Shown here piece after piece: positions 11,145 through 16,632 of a stretch of DNA of 64,000 nt (position 1 is the stretch's first letter; each line of letters starts with the position of its first letter). Origin of the DNA: Streptomyces sp. NBC_00236 (GTDB taxonomy: Bacteria > Actinomycetota > Actinomycetes > Streptomycetales > Streptomycetaceae); contig NZ_CP108100.1 of the NCBI RefSeq assembly GCF_036195045.1, forward strand, positions 5,332,001 to 5,396,000, in the 5' to 3' direction. The translations under genes were made by a program, and so were the position numbers. Below the pieces are notes generated by a model. That model made no database searches. It saw only the letters and a list, made by a program, of their open reading frames with translations, and was not told the origin of the DNA.

Positions 11145-12149
11145 ATGCCAGGCGCGATCTACGCCGAAGGTCTGGTGAAGACCTTCGGCGACGTCACCGC
11201 ACTCGGCGGCGTCGACCTCGACGTGCCGCAAGGCACCGTCCTCGGACTTCTCGGCCCCAACGGGGCCGGCAAGACGACTGCCGTACGTGTCCTCACGACG
11301 CTGCTCAGGCCCGACAGCGGCAGCGCCTTCGTCGCGGGCATCGACGTACTGAAGAATCCCAACGACGTGCGGCGCTCGATCGGGCTCTCCGGCCAGTTCG
11401 CCGCCGTCGACGAGTACCTGACCGGCCGCGAGAACCTGCACATGGTCGGCCAGCTCTACCAGCTGTCCTCCCGCGACGCGAAGACCCGGGCCGCGGAACT
11501 GCTGGAACGCTTCAACCTCGCCGACGCGGCCGACCGCACCGCCAAGACCTACTCCGGCGGCATGCGGCGCCGGCTCGACCTCGCGGCGGCGCTCGTCGTC
11601 TCCCCGCCGGTCATGTTCATGGACGAGCCGACCACCGGACTCGACCCCCGCAACCGGCAGCAGCTCTGGGAGGTCATCGAGGAGCTCGTCGCCGGCGGTA
11701 CGACGCTGCTGCTGACCACGCAGTACCTGGAGGAGGCGGACCGCCTCGCCCACGACATCTGCGTGATCGACCACGGCCTCGTCATCGCCCGCGGCACCTC
11801 CGACCAGCTCAAGGCCCGCACCGGCGGCGAGCGCATCGAGGTCGTCGTCCAGCAGCGCGACCAGATCGACCCGGCCCGCGAGGTCCTCGCCCATCTGGGC
11901 AAGGGGGAAGTCGCCGTCGTCCCGCACATGCGCAAGCTGACCGTCCCGGTCGACGGCGGCGCCAAGCTCCTCGCCGAGGTCATCCGCGACCTCGACGCGC
12001 GCGGCGTGGAGATCGACGACATCGGGCTGCGCCGCCCCACCCTCGACGACGTGTTCATCTCCCTCACCGGTCACGCCGCCGAGCAGGAGAAGACCGACGA
12101 GAACGGGACGGGCGCGCAGCCTGCCGCCCGGACGGAGGCAACGAAGTGA
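11145..12149 (+). CDS. DrrA-type ABC exporter ATP-binding protein
   Basis: The 334-residue ATPase drives a two-component drug or lipid exporter. Walker A is GPNGAGKTTAVR near residue 40, the signature is YSGGMRRRLDLA, Walker B is VMFMDEPTTGLDPRN, and the switch His lies in the TTQYLEEADRL segment (here Q rather than H follows TT, as in many DrrA proteins). The C-terminal extension (from about residue 230) with GLRRPTLDDVFISLTGH is the DrrA-specific regulatory domain. Its stop overlaps the GTG of the permease fragment (GTGA), so the ATPase and permease were translated as a coupled pair. The original permease is interrupted by a mobile element that supplies a substitute. Confidence 0.93.
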   Translation: MPGAIYAEGLVKTFGDVTALGGVDLDVPQGTVLGLLGPNGAGKTTAVRVLTTLLRPDSGSAFVAGIDVLKNPNDVRRSIGLSGQFAAVDEYLTGRENLHMVGQLYQLSSRDAKTRAAELLERFNLADAADRTAKTYSGGMRRRLDLAAALVVSPPVMFMDEPTTGLDPRNRQQLWEVIEELVAGGTTLLLTTQYLEEADRLAHDICVIDHGLVIARGTSDQLKARTGGERIEVVVQQRDQIDPAREVLAHLGKGEVAVVPHMRKLTVPVDGGAKLLAEVIRDLDARGVEIDDIGLRRPTLDDVFISLTGHAAEQEKTDENGTGAQPAARTEATK

Positions 12150-12355
12150 GTGCCGTTACCGAGACGACCGCCGGCCGCGCGCCCCGCTCCGGCGGCGGCG
12201 TCGGCCAGTCCGTCCGTGACTCGCTGGTCATCGCCCGCCGCAACCTGATCCGTATGAGCCGGATTCCGAATCTTGTTCGCTCAGGTGGATTTCAGTTCAA
12301 CTCGGCACGACGTCATGACCTGCGCATGAGCGCCGGGATGGAGGTGGTGAAGTGA
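12146..12355 (+). pseudogene. 5' fragment of the original ABC permease gene, fused to element DNA
   Basis: The first 41 codons (VSAVTETTAG...MSRIP) are the N-terminus of the original DrrB-type permease, in host-like codons. The frame then enters the inserted element at about 12268 and reads 28 unrelated residues (NLVRSGGFQF...MEVVK) to a TGA at 12353. That TGA overlaps the GTG start of the substitute permease. The 69-residue product should have no function of its own. It may still carry ribosomes from the ATPase gene to the substitute permease, acting as a translated leader. Joined to 15131-15859 it would restore a 283-residue permease in frame. Confidence 0.88.
12266..12268. other. Left attachment junction (attL) of element 1
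   Basis: The host permease match ends in CCG here, and the sequence then diverges into element DNA beginning AATCTTG. The crossover lies within these three bases. Confidence 0.7.
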
Positions 12356-13161
12356 GCAGCACGGTGGACAGCCTGGTCATCGCTCGCAGGAACCTAATTC
12401 GGATGTCCCGAATTCCTGAGATGTTGCTTTTTGGGGTCATCCAGCCAGTCATGTTCGTCGTGCTGTTCACGTACGTCTTCGGCGGCTCCATCGCCATCCC
12501 GGGTGCCGGCGTCAGCGCCTCCGCCTACAAGGAATTCCTGATGGCGGGCATCTTCGCGCAGACGGTCACCTTCGCCACGGCCGGTGCGGGCGCCGGGATC
12601 GCGGACGACATGCATAAGGGACTCATCGATCGGTTCCGCTCGTTGCCGATGGCGCGCGGGGCTGTGCTCACTGGTCGTACCCTCGCCGACCTCGTGCAGA
12701 CTGCGGTGACGCTTGCCGTGCTGGCGGGCGTGGCCTTGATCGTCGGCTGGCGTACACACGAGAACATCGGCAAGGTGCTGGCAGGTTTCGCCCTGCTCCT
12801 GCTGCTCGGGTACGCGTTCACCTGGATCGGTGCCCTGATCGGCCTGTCCGTCCGGACCCCGGAGGCGGCAACCTCGGGCGGGCTGATCTGGCTGTTCCCG
12901 CTGACCTTCATCTCGAACGCGTTCGTTCCGGTCAACGGCATGCCGACGTTCCTTCAGTACGTCGCCGAGTGGAACCCTTTCAGCGCCACAGTGCAGGCGG
13001 CACGCGAGCTGTTCGGCAACACGATCGCCGGTGTCCCCAAGTCGGTGACCGGCGCGTGGCCCATGGAGCATCCGGTGTGGGCTTCGCTGATCTGGTCCGT
13101 CCTGATCATCGTGGTGTTCCGCTCCCTCGCGGTGCGCAAGTACCGCCGAGTGGACGCCTGA
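12352..13161 (+). CDS. Substitute ABC-2 type permease carried by element 1
   Basis: This is a complete 269-residue DrrB-type membrane protein with six predicted helices, the ABC-2 segment RTPEAATSGGLIWLFPLTFISNAFVP and the C-terminal WSVLIIVVFRSLAVRKYRR. It is clearly homologous (about three quarters identical by eye) to the interrupted host permease but differs at many residues, so it came from another strain or species. It lacks the host's N-terminal SAVTETTAGRAPRSGGG leader. Its GTG start overlaps the stop of the 5' fragment, giving coupling to the ATPase. By hand count about 36 of 269 codons end in A or T, most densely at codons 11-26, which cover the attachment site. It presumably pairs with the upstream ATPase. 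Confidence 0.9.
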   Translation: MSSTVDSLVIARRNLIRMSRIPEMLLFGVIQPVMFVVLFTYVFGGSIAIPGAGVSASAYKEFLMAGIFAQTVTFATAGAGAGIADDMHKGLIDRFRSLPMARGAVLTGRTLADLVQTAVTLAVLAGVALIVGWRTHENIGKVLAGFALLLLLGYAFTWIGALIGLSVRTPEAATSGGLIWLFPLTFISNAFVPVNGMPTFLQYVAEWNPFSATVQAARELFGNTIAGVPKSVTGAWPMEHPVWASLIWSVLIIVVFRSLAVRKYRRVDA

Positions 13162-13190
13162 CCCGTCCCCCACGCCGCGGATATCGGAAA

Positions 13191-13221
13191 GGGGCTCGCC
13201 AGGCCGAATCCGGCGAGCCCC
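13191..13221 (+). terminator. Terminator after the substitute permease
   Basis: A 10-bp GC-rich stem begins 30 bases after the permease stop and closes an 11-base loop. It ends the exporter operon inside the element, so host sequence to the right would not be transcribed from the operon promoter. Confidence 0.7.
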
Positions 13222-13237
13222 TCTCTGTGGCGGAGCG

Positions 13238-13615
13238 TCAGCAGAAGGTTGCGTACTTCGACGACCCTTCCCAGATGCTCTTCCCGTTGTACGTGGCGAC
13301 AGCCCATGTCGTGAGGGCCGCACAGCTCGGCTTGTTGATACTCACCTTCACCGTGCCAGCGTTGATGGTTGCGCACTTGGATGCCAAGTTCACATCCGGC
13401 CCGTACGGGTACAGCGCGTTCAGGTTGACGCAGAGCTTCGTACCCACGGGGTTGGGGCCGTTCAGGTTCGCTTCGGCGTAGACCTTGCCACCGGACAAGT
13501 AAGGAAGCTTGGCCGTCCCCGACGCCTGCTCGCCAGCCTGAGCCGAGAACGCGCTGGCCATGACGAGGACCAACGCCGCGGATCCTGTCCCCAGCAGCTT
13601 GATGCTTGCCTTCAT
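13238..13615 (-). CDS. Small secreted Cys-containing protein, cargo of element 1
   Basis: The 125-residue product starts at ATG 13615 with GGAG nine bases upstream. It has a clear signal peptide (MKASIKLLGTGSAALVLVMASAFSAQA, cleavage expected after AQA). The mature part (about 98 residues) contains four Cys residues (in LCVNL, KCATI, SCAAL and the final FC), compatible with two disulfides, and several NLN/YPYG turns. I do not recognise a named family, though similar secreted orphans are frequent in streptomycetes. It lies convergent to the substitute permease inside the inserted element and so was brought with it. Toxin, adhesin or morphogen roles are all open. Confidence 0.75.
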   Translation of the reverse strand: MKASIKLLGTGSAALVLVMASAFSAQAGEQASGTAKLPYLSGGKVYAEANLNGPNPVGTKLCVNLNALYPYGPDVNLASKCATINAGTVKVSINKPSCAALTTWAVATYNGKSIWEGSSKYATFC

Positions 13616-13739
13616 CGCTTATCAGCTCCATGTGCGGCCCTCTGCAACGCTGGCTGCGAGACGAGCCGCTGTCGTGTGTGAATCACAGCGAGGCCTGTAC
13701 CTCACGCATGCTAACGATGTGTGATCGCGTGGGAACACC

Positions 13740-15137
13740 GTGTTTTCGGACCTCGACTCGCCTGAGCCCGTGACTCGCGAGGACGCGGCCCGCTACCTGA
13801 ACTCGAAGGGCCACCGCACCCGGCAGGGCAAGCCCTGGGAGGGCGGCAACCTCGCCCGCCGGATTCAGGCCAGCCTGAAGGGTTACGTCGAGTTCAACTT
13901 CGCCGGCCAGAACGAGGACGGCGAGGAGGTCACCACCAGCTTCCGCATCGACGTCCCCAAGGCTCTGACGGACGAGCGCGCGGAAGGCGTGCTCGCCTAC
14001 CTGAAGCGGTCGTCCCGCACGAGGAACGTGGCGGCCTCGAAGTACCTGCTGTCCAGCCGCCTGATCTCCGTGTGCGGCGCCTACCGAACCGGCGCGTCCG
14101 TCACGGAAGGTCGCGCCGTCAACACGGCAGGCCGCTACTACCGATGCATGGCCGGAAGCAAGGGCAACCCGCTCACCGACCGACACGAGGACTGCTGGGA
14201 ACTTCCGGTCGGCGAGGTCGATGCCGCCGTCTGGTCCGAGATCGAGGGCCTGCTGAACAACAAGGCCAAGCTGCACGAGTTGGTAGAGAAGTGGCTGGGC
14301 GCCGTCCCCGACCGTGCCGCGTCCTACCGCCGACGCCTGTCCGAGCTGGACGTCCAGATCGAGAAGAAGCGCAAGGCGCGGAAGAGGAAGATCGCTCTAC
14401 TCCTCGCCTCCGTGGATGAGGACGACGTCGACCAGGACGACGCGAAGCTGGTCGAGGAGCTGAGGGGGGAGCTGACGGCCCAGGAAGACGAGCTGATGGA
14501 GGAGAAGGACCGTGTCGCCGAGTGGCTGGGCGAGGCGGAGGCCCAGGAGGACCGCGCCAGGGATCTCCTCAAGGCCGTGGAGAACATCAGCACTGCACGC
14601 GACTTCACCATGGCGCAGAAGTTGGACCTGATGGACCTGCTCGACATCAAGGTGCACATCACCGACAAGGGAGTGCCTCGGCACAAGGGCCTGGTCGACC
14701 CGATCACCGAGTGGCACCGCGAGACGGGTACCCCGGTGCCCGAGGACCTGACAGACGAGATGTGGAACAAGGTCAAGAACATCCTGTCGGGCACTCGACA
14801 GTGGCAGGACGTGCGCGGCGCCTTCGACGTGATGCTGGAGAAGCTGCGCACCGCGAAGCCGTGGAACGAATACAGCGGGTCCGAGAGGATCGACGGGCGG
14901 GGCTACACGACGCTGTACCGGCGCGTGCATCACTGGCACAGCTCGGGGGAGTACCGGGCCGCTCTGGAGGCGCTGAAGGGCTTCCCGGCTGTGCCGGTGC
15001 CGCCTGCCTATCGGCTCCCTCACATGCTGGTGACCGGTGCGGTCGACCCGGAGTTCACCACCTCTGACCTGGGCGAAGACTGCGATGGGGCGAGCTGCAA
15101 GAGTGACGACATGGCTGGACTAGCTTCCCGGAGATGA
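13740..15137 (+). pseudogene. Large serine recombinase, C-terminal part only
   Basis: The frame (465 residues from GTG 13740) begins inside the recombinase domain (TREDAARYLNSKGHRTRQGKPW...). It continues through a degenerate zinc ribbon (CGAYRTG...YYRCM...C) and a long charged coiled coil (about 195-300, EKKRKARKRK, EELRGELTAQEDELMEEKDRVAEWLGEAE), and ends in a C-terminal tail of about 130 residues. The N-terminal resolvase domain with the catalytic serine, about 150-200 residues in this family, is absent, and no frame upstream supplies it. No convincing ribosome site precedes it. Its final RR and stop codon are encoded by host permease DNA to the right of the crossover. It is inactive as a recombinase. 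Confidence 0.88.
15128..15130. other. Right attachment junction (attR) of element 1
   Basis: Host permease similarity resumes with CCG-GAG-ATG here. Immediately left the sequence is element-specific (GACTAGCTTC). Confidence 0.7.
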
Positions 15138-15859
15138 TCCTCTTCGGGCTCATCCAGCCGGTCATGTTCGTCGTGCTGTTCAGCTACGTGTTCGGCGGCT
15201 CGATGGTGATCGGCGGCTCGACCAGCGCCGCCGAGTACCGCGAGTTCCTCATGGCGGGCATCTTCGCCCAGACGGTCACCTTCGCCACGGCCGGCGCCGG
15301 AGCGGGTATCGCCGACGACATGCACAAGGGCCTCATCGACCGTTTCCGGTCGCTGCCCATGGCGCGCGGCGCGGTCCTCACCGGTCGCACGCTGGCCGAC
15401 CTCGTCCAGACCACGCTCACCGTCATCGTCCTCACGGTCGTCGCCCTGCTCGTCGGCTGGCGCATCCACGAGGGCATCCCGAAGGCGCTGGGGGCCTTCG
15501 CGCTGCTGCTTCTCCTCGGCTACGCCTTCTCGTGGATCGGTGCCCTGATCGGCCTGTCCGTCCGGACCCCGGAGGCCGCGACCTCGGGAGGGCTGATCTG
15601 GCTGTTCCCGGTCACGTTCATCTCGAACGCGTTCGTGCCCACCGAGAACATGGCCGGCTGGCTCCAGCCGATCGCCGAGTGGAACCCGTTCAGCGCGACC
15701 GTCCAGGCGTGCCGGGAACTGTTCGGGAACCCGGGCGTCTCCCCGTCCGACGCGTGGCCGATGGTCCACCCCGTGTGGGCCTCGCTGATCTGGTCCGTGG
15801 TGATCATCGTGGTCTTCCGGACGCTGTCGGTCCGCAAGTACCGCTCGGTCGCCGTCTGA
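15131..15859 (+). pseudogene. 3' fragment of the original ABC permease gene
   Basis: These 243 codons (EMILFGLIQP...RKYRSVAV, stop) complete the host permease begun at 12146, in host-like GC-ending codons. The fragment contains five or six of the membrane helices but has lost its N-terminal 41 residues, its start and its operon promoter. An internal ATG at 15134 would give a 241-residue protein, but no ribosome site precedes it. It shares a 44-bp identical stretch with the substitute copy (15533-15576 against 12823-12866). The natural operon terminator follows at 15878. Confidence 0.87.
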
Positions 15860-15945: not shown

Positions 15946-16443
15946 TCAGCCGGAGTACGGCTTCGCCGAGAGGATCTTCACCGTGGCGGTCTTGCCGTTC
16001 GGCAGCTCGTACTCGGCGCTCTCGCCCATCCTCTTGCCGTTCACGCCCACGCCGAGCGGGGACTGCGGGGAGTACGTCTCGATGTCCGCGCTCGCGTACT
16101 CGCGGGAGGCGAGAAGGAAGGTCGTCGTGTCGTCCTCGTCGCCGTCGAAGGCGATCGTCACGACCATGCCGGGCTCGACCACGCCGTCGTCGGCAGGGGC
16201 CTCGCCGACCTTCGCGTGCTCCAGGAGCTGGGTCAGCTGGCGCACCCGGAGCTCCATCTTGCCCTGCTCCTCCTTGGCCGCGTGGTACCCGCCGTTCTCG
16301 CGCAGGTCGCCCTCCTCACGGGCCGCCGCGATCTTGACGGCGATCTCCGTGCGCGCGGGACCAGACAGGTACTCCAGCTCGGCCTTGAGCTGGTTGTACG
16401 CCTCCGGCGTGAGCCAGGTGACGTTTTCGCTGGTCTGGGTCAC
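15946..16443 (-). CDS. greA: Transcription elongation factor GreA
   Basis: GreA enters the RNA polymerase secondary channel and stimulates cleavage of backtracked transcripts. The 165-residue protein has the N-terminal antiparallel coiled coil (about residues 10-80, including AREEGDLRENGGYHAAKEEQGKMELRV, with the Asp-Glu tip pair nearby in GDLRENGGY). The C-terminal FKBP-like domain (PGMVVTIAFDGDEDD...YSPQSPLGVGVNGKRMGESAEYELPNG) follows. I chose GTG 16443, which follows GAGGAG. The frame is open to an upstream ATG (16497), but that extension is not family-like. Confidence 0.95.
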   Translation of the reverse strand: MTQTSENVTWLTPEAYNQLKAELEYLSGPARTEIAVKIAAAREEGDLRENGGYHAAKEEQGKMELRVRQLTQLLEHAKVGEAPADDGVVEPGMVVTIAFDGDEDDTTTFLLASREYASADIETYSPQSPLGVGVNGKRMGESAEYELPNGKTATVKILSAKPYSG

Positions 16444-16632
16444 AGGGTGCTCCTCGTCGGTACTGGGAATACAAAGCATCGCCCTACCCCGAAGCATGCG
16501 CTTCCACGGGTGGGCGAAACCACGAGCCTAACAATTCGGCGGGGAAAGGGGGAGGAGGTAAACGACTGAGAGTGTCGAACCGCAGGTCAGAGGTGCTGAG
16601 AGTCGCTCAGGTCACCCGTGCGGCGGTCAACG

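Follow-up and report, generated by a model that had tools for sequence, protein, structure and literature searches.

A decayed prophage relic at a split Streptomyces drrB-type permease gene and the putative rescue copy it carries

In a window of 64,000 nucleotides from Streptomyces sp. NBC_00236, whose genome consists of one contig of 8.33 Mb, the gene for a DrrB-type permease (drrB) is split by an insert of 2.86 kb that starts with a complete, homologous permease gene (hereafter the substitute). The native gene is interrupted at Pro41, the CC at 12266-12267 being the first two bases of that codon, and when both halves are joined in silico they yield 283 codons without a stop, the product of which is 88% identical to that of the uninterrupted drrB of genome G199 (269 aligned positions, one gap). 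An initial annotation, made from this DNA alone, had described such an arrangement, i.e. a permease gene split at codon 41 whose halves rejoin in frame once the insert is removed, and an insert that opens with a full homologous permease in the same orientation; the open reading frames (ORFs), the Pfam match of the substitute and the comparison with other loci bear this out. The substitute shares 81% of its amino acids and 79% of its nucleotides with the native 3' part.

The genes concerned overlap at their ends. The stop codon of the upstream gene, which encodes a DrrA-type ABC ATPase, overlaps the GTG (12146) at which the broken permease gene starts, and the frame of the broken 5' fragment continues through a leader that stems from the element, to end in a TGA (12353-12355) that overlaps the GTG of the substitute. 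Both overlaps had been pointed out in the initial annotation and both are real. The features of the locus are listed in Table 1.

Table 1. Features at the split drrB locus, in positions of the window
Feature	Position	Strand	Basis and remarks
DrrA-type ABC ATPase gene	11145..12149	+	ORF; Pfam ABC_tran and DrrA1-3_C
Native DrrB-type permease, 5' fragment (codons 1-41)	12146..12268	+	ORF and locus comparison
attL	12246..12290	+	Approximate limits; attL/attR of the window, G057, G146 and NRRL S-646 and attP of phage Haizum compared
Leader from the element, in frame with the broken 5' fragment	12268..12355	+	Locus comparison
Complete substitute permease, 269 amino acids	12352..13161	+	Pfam ABC2_membrane
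att-equivalent patch in the substitute (residues 13-28)	12388..12435	+	Codon-usage comparison
125-amino-acid protein, signal-peptide-like start (by eye)	13238..13615	-	ORF
5'-truncated large serine integrase, C-terminal ~465 amino acids	13740..15137	+	90% amino acid identity to the intact G057 integrase
attR, CC core at 15128-15129	15110..15150	+	Approximate limits; att comparison
Native permease, 3' part from codon 42, frame still open	15131..15859	+	ORF; join of the halves
Convergent neighbor gene (right-hand landmark)	15946..16497	-	ORF; position kept in relatives

The arrangement recurs in other species, where the search that the initial annotation had recommended, i.e. for the same recombinase beside a permease copy, was successful. 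An integrase match (E<=1e-60) is present in 27 of 392 genomes of the genus, located at drrB in G000, G057, G146, G326 and G297 and at a second gene, hydA (see below), in G266 and G383, the other 20 having been left unclassified save for inspection by eye. A scan of genome contigs with the integrase alignment returned five loci, all adjoining the right-hand landmark of the drrB site, a gene which we take to be greA. Three of these, namely IMTB 2501 (identical to G146), NRRL S-646 and BV286, the element of which is short, possess the 5' fragment, the substitute and the 3' part. In A1277 drrB is unsplit, the integrase is broken and a short inverted piece of drrB is present; At AC1-42W (L082) the integrase is broken too and a short inverted piece of drrB lies beside greA; no drrB gene was found within the stretch examined, and this locus was excluded from the counts. 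In total, a separate 5' fragment is followed by a full substitute at nine loci (the window, G057, G146, NRRL S-646, BV286, G182, G090, G093 and G326); G297, with an integrase that is 44% identical and a 5' fragment that is apparently fused, stands outside this set. At all nine the frame of the broken fragment is open through the leader, its TGA and the GTG or ATG of the substitute share a 4-nucleotide overlap, and the substitute has its full length (eight by ORF, G326 by an unbroken alignment of 264 residues). The spacer measures 81 nucleotides at six of them, though the leader sequences differ. Because site, order and overlap are the same at nine out of nine loci, the combination of split and substitute represents more than chance.

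The insert had been considered a mobile element brought in by a serine recombinase. The relation to large serine integrases stands, but only the C-terminal portion of a protein of ~662 amino acids remains: the alignment to intact relatives begins near position 198, and Pfam detects no Resolvase domain in the ORF whereas that domain is present in the integrases of G057 and G146, so that the copy in the window is defective. At the nucleotide level it is 91.5% identical to the intact G057 gene over the shared part. In G057 drrB is split at the same codon and its halves lie ~53 kb apart, with a full permease gene immediately inside attL and the right half after an intact 662-amino-acid integrase that includes the Resolvase domain. 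Over ~47 of its ~53 kb the G057 prophage is collinear, in circularly permuted order, with the Streptomyces phage Haizum (Omarvirus, Arquatrovirinae), the matched pieces being 66-98% identical in nucleotides, and this collinearity with a named member places it with the Arquatrovirinae-type prophages; the ~6.7 kb adjoining attL, permease included, are without match to Haizum. Haizum also has an integrase that is 62% identical over the part present in the window. Since the window retains just the two ends of such a prophage, its insert is, as judged from these comparisons, a decayed prophage relic composed of a left end and a right end, and not the working mobile element of the initial annotation.

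Ahead of the att core, the integrase frame contains no stop of its own. The TGA that ends it in the window is supplied by the host arm (TCC CGG AGA TGA; window 15120-15137), and in free Haizum the frame extends further into attP (L077:7300-7419); with the stop codon outside the element, the C-terminus would therefore alter upon integration. The integrases of the window, G057 and G146 also resemble DUF4096, of the IS4/5 transposase family, but weakly and below the cutoff (residues 337-403 of the ORF in the window). Elsewhere in the G057 prophage, L061:15002-15964 (-) gives a weak, below-cutoff match to an MvdD pre-ATP-grasp domain near small ORFs, a neighborhood that is possibly a phage-borne ribosomal-peptide cluster.

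Judging from the comparison of the attL and attR sequences, the crossover core is probably CC, the bases of codon Pro41 that do not vary. The substitute had been called recoded, which holds above all for the part equivalent to the att site. With a rare codon defined as one that is used under 10% at its position, the rare-codon fraction of residues 13-28 is 0.35 in eight substitutes versus 0.06 in 94 other drrB genes, and this patch ranks first among the 16-codon windows of the eight substitutes. The patch has a deficit in GC content at third codon positions (GC3) as well (Mann-Whitney p=4e-5, unadjusted for relatedness; the sequences are related, hence p-values are optimistic). Ile16 is encoded by ATT in 7/8 substitutes versus 4/94 other drrB genes and Phe27 by TTT in 6/8 versus 1/94, and these changes concern bases 16 bp either side of the core. 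Between a native attB and the substitute of the same locus 7-11 of 40 bases differ (five loci), the base at -16 from the CC being changed in all five and that at +16 in four. For the attB of phiC31, the pertinent part of PMC5311408 gives sensitive bases at 2, 15 and 16 from the core. As an attB for the accompanying integrase and its relatives the substitute would probably be poor; it is apparently a rescue gene masked against the integrase that it accompanies. The third base of the Pro codon, considered as a further protected position, was dropped, CCC being the commonest codon among 106 drrB genes (75 CCC, 22 CCG, 8 CCT, 1 CCA), substitutes included.

As to the origin of the substitutes, eight of them fall at about five places among the chromosomal drrB genes (FastTree, 111 sequences including halves; some nodes are weak), a placement by which they are host-derived and polyphyletic among host genes. 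From this polyphyly we infer that the leader was retained while drrB alleles were captured or exchanged time and again. The substitutes are under purifying selection: six close pairs containing a substitute have ratios of non-synonymous to synonymous substitution rates (dN/dS) of 0.06-0.15, the value of 0.06 belonging to the window substitute and its chromosomal relative in G066. Compared with the native half of the same locus, the ratio is 0.20 in the window and 0.12 in G057. The substitute is presumably expressed and functional. Several stages of decay can be recognized. In G093, G182, G277 and G090 a full-length substitute or fused drrB is accompanied by a native 3' part that has been shortened or disrupted; in G277 in particular, relics of the small gene (minus strand in the window) and of an old drrB 3' end come after an unsplit drrB, which looks like the end product of element decay, and A1277 may be another such product. 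A drrB match (E<=1e-80) occurs in 278 of 295 genomes of the genus, and the drrB loci of 100 of these, plus that of G182, were examined; they were taken mostly from the top of the ranking by similarity to the substitute and in some cases for having two matches, and because of this selection the sample does not yield a genus-wide frequency of relics. In the wider drrB-greA gaps of G066, G115, G033, G289 and G080 no convincing element relic appeared among the best 12 tblastx hits each, although for G033, G289 and G080 the query was the whole locus and the matches displayed are drrB itself, which could conceal a relic; these five loci do not enter the counts.

The same design was encountered at a second gene, which we take to be that for dihydropyrimidinase (hydA). 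The integrase of G266, 39% identical to that of G057 over 670 residues, adjoins the 3' part of hydA, and on a second contig the 5' part (5681-6256 of L166) is followed by a full hydA from 6253 with an ATGA overlap; past the full gene the DNA remains 84% identical to the native sequence through the next gene, for an oxidoreductase of the LLM (luciferase-like monooxygenase) family. The two contigs are presumably the ends of one element. In G383, on a single contig, hydA is split likewise, with halves ~157 kb apart, a full substitute, a copy of the downstream LLM gene (Bac_luciferase) and an integrase ~39% identical to that of the drrB site. Both substitutes have a local drop in GC3 close to the site that is equivalent to att (G266: 9/15 versus 400/431, p=0.0006; G383: 10/15 versus 394/430, p=0.008; Fisher one-sided). 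A hydA match (E<=1e-180) was obtained in 282 of 295 genomes of the genus, G096 and G262 each having two, and in INPHARED 26 records matched hydA, all below 60% (best 39.7% among the 20 listed). Other integrase relatives are 25-41% identical over the searched part; among ten inspected loci hydA in G266 is the sole further same-direction gene split recognized by eye, and several others adjoin opposite-direction genes or gene ends (also by eye, spare copies not having been searched). The G383 island (G383:C1 1180043-1333358, ~153 kb from integrase to hydA substitute) contains genes for a multicopper oxidase and a trehalase-like glycosidase, besides a weak match to EccE. A tblastx hint of Haizum-like genes throughout this island was discarded, because blastn gave no nucleotide match to Haizum besides the integrase region.

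The elements at the drrB site are not all alike. IMTB 2501 combines the integrase with a match to the RepSA (pSAM2-type) replication gene, and NRRL S-646 has a RepSA homolog (77%) and, by eye, an ORF like that of a helix-turn-helix (HTH) regulator; no Tra gene was recognized by eye among its listed ORFs, for which no profile search was made. RepSA-type replication genes lie at L063:9779-10930 (-) and L083:8280-9731 (+), in small drrB-integrated elements with a phage-type integrase, suggesting that phages and plasmid-like elements exchange integration modules. A pattern scan of IMG/VR yielded no DrrB relative (10 stretches matched the pattern, none was confirmed), nor did the Streptomyces phages of INPHARED, where only four weak, Listeria-labelled records were hit, and among plasmids (E<=1e-60) there was a single match, a 62% permease in the record of a Streptomyces plasmid. 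Between substitute and integrase the window encodes a protein of 125 amino acids to which Pfam gives no match; relatives adjoin drrB in G277 (59%; L043:4175-4498) and G239 (35%; L075:11687-11926), and it is a possible lysogeny cargo gene.

We consider it very probable that these observations reflect a decayed prophage and a coupled, masked rescue gene, along the following lines. A Haizum-like phage (Arquatrovirinae) would integrate into drrB by means of its large serine integrase, crossing over at the CC of codon Pro41, with the attP end that is destined for attL bringing a complete drrB, and integration would set this substitute behind the broken 5' stub. The frame of the stub would cross the phage leader and stop on the start codon of the substitute, so that ribosomes that finish the stub could restart there, and because of this the ATPase-permease operon can remain translationally coupled. 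The substitute would be a host-derived drrB in which the codons around the att site were changed where the integrase probably needs them; with its att region altered, it would probably be a poor substrate for the resident integrase and for related ones, and the recoding would thereby block recombination. The host would retain its transporter (or, at hydA, its enzyme) and the element would gain a stable lysogen. Later, the phage body and the N-terminus of the integrase would have been deleted with the substitute left as a working gene, and after such decay the host would hold the element's allele.

Several observations weigh against this explanation. That the element brings the substitute, as the initial annotation had it, applies to nine loci, in other species too, but not universally: free Haizum, the attP arm of which is closely similar, has no permease gene (what comes after attP is a repeat resembling a terminator, as seen by eye, and a gene with the annotation HTH DNA-binding protein), and the substitute is therefore dispensable for the existence of the phage. 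The native halves of the window and G057, with frames still open, show a dN/dS of 0.045 when compared with each other, and hence no sign of relaxed selection as yet. Rare codons are more frequent throughout the substitutes (0.08-0.16 versus about 0.04 in other drrB genes), and part of the rare-codon signal is therefore general. Furthermore, the lowest patch GC3 of all (0.43) belongs to the uninterrupted drrB of G108 (L164), at which locus no element relic was found; this gene retains ATC and TTC at the codons 16 bp from the core, and its patch might be due to chance or might mark a resolved allele of an element. In G093 (L046:2895-3260) two successive leaders separate the 5' fragment from the substitute, the second of which looks as if it lay inside the broken start of an earlier substitute where a second element had landed, which would mean that masking is not absolute. 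Finally, the 5' fragment of hydA in G383 ends 82 nucleotides before the substitute, without overlap, and start/stop coupling is for that reason not universal.

If the second permease gene were chance cargo, the element having entered one of two pre-existing tandem drrB genes or the host having duplicated its gene, it would have no rescue role. Paralogs of the family are indeed common, with 12 matches to the substitute in the genome of the window (E<=0.001). Yet tandem drrB copies without an element, the arrangement that the initial annotation had named as contradicting it, were not seen at this locus in any of the 11 located genomes among the 12 with two drrB matches: four are element loci (the window, G057, G090 and G146), in six the matches lie far apart on one contig and in G237 they lie on two contigs, the second match of G239 not having been located. 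The position of the substitute, inside attL and behind the leader with the exact overlap, and the repetition of the design at hydA likewise count against chance cargo, which we regard as extremely improbable. Hardly better placed, and in our view highly improbable, is regulated gene integrity, in which drrB would be off in lysogens and restored by excision. Such systems (SPbeta-spsM, skin-sigK) rebuild their gene through excision, as described in the relevant parts of PMC4191935 and PMC5025042. They resemble the present case in that the frame of a protein gene is split by an integrated element. According to the pertinent section of PMC10111431, elements of this class typically integrate mid-gene and bring no replacement sequence; in line with that source, they are not known to carry a spare copy. 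Here, however, a full copy is present in the same operon, the truncated integrase of the window is unable to excise itself, and the decayed loci examined have retained the substitute or fused gene and shortened the native half.

A rescue function may also be real without any masking, if the odd codons of the patch simply go back to a single ancestral gene of an element, or to the codon usage of a donor. The attP leaders are related across elements and the gene bodies are polyphyletic, such that an N-terminal patch could travel with the leader, and both the gene-wide excess of rare codons and the low-GC3 patch of the element-free G108 gene fit this alternative. It accounts less readily for a patch that is the top-ranked window, for the contrast at Ile16 and Phe27, the bases of which sit symmetrically about the core, and for the same local GC3 deficit in the unrelated target hydA, and we therefore hold it to be rather unlikely.

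The explanation by a coupled and masked rescue gene resembles synthetic cleave-and-rescue gene drives, which break their target and supply a recoded, cut-resistant copy. Those drives rely on engineered nucleases and belong to eukaryotes, whereas the present element, with its integrase, is natural and would act in bacteria. Gene-restoring elements, i.e. those of tyrosine integrases at tRNA genes and icd, likewise carry target sequence that keeps the host gene working (PMC10111431, in the section concerned). In those elements attP supplies a gene part that fuses to the host remainder, whereas here a whole separate gene stands behind a 5' stub and both host halves stay outside it, the integrase is a large serine integrase, the site is mid-gene, the spare copy is recoded and, at hydA, the next gene is supplied too; a complete target frame is nevertheless present after integration at all nine loci. 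For HE-PICIs (helper-embedded phage-inducible chromosomal islands), which are satellite islands, it is discussed that an intact copy may stand in for an interrupted helper gene, but these copies are late genes that were captured from phages and lie in the Late zone, and the corresponding part of PMC10111431 mentions neither a start/stop overlap nor a recoded att site. End-restoring attP sites and regulated gene integrity are thus both described in the open-access PubMed Central (PMC) literature, as far as the relevant excerpts go, whereas no description of a whole recoded substitute for a mid-gene site was found in that literature, including the portions consulted of PMC3218068, PMC10111431, PMC12884075, PMC8743540, PMC9513070 and PMC5311408.

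We lean, with less confidence, towards a wider generalization, namely that of a natural 'break and rescue', in which Streptomyces serine-integrase elements (phage, RepSA elements and a ~155-kb island) would split conserved genes and install a complete, often coupled and masked copy, plus the downstream gene at hydA, after which decay would leave the allele of the element in the chromosome; host alleles would thus be replaced again and again, and such elements may vaccinate the locus against their relatives. The locus illustrates how a serine integrase could land mid-gene at little cost to the host, which end restoration cannot achieve. The substitutes furthermore provide natural data on the attB bases that an integrase may need, and the combination of a coupled start with a masked copy represents a design that may be useful for safe landing sites in gene engineering. 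The explanation also predicts a hidden replacement of alleles: some chromosomal drrB genes, such as those of G277 and A1277, look like element leftovers.

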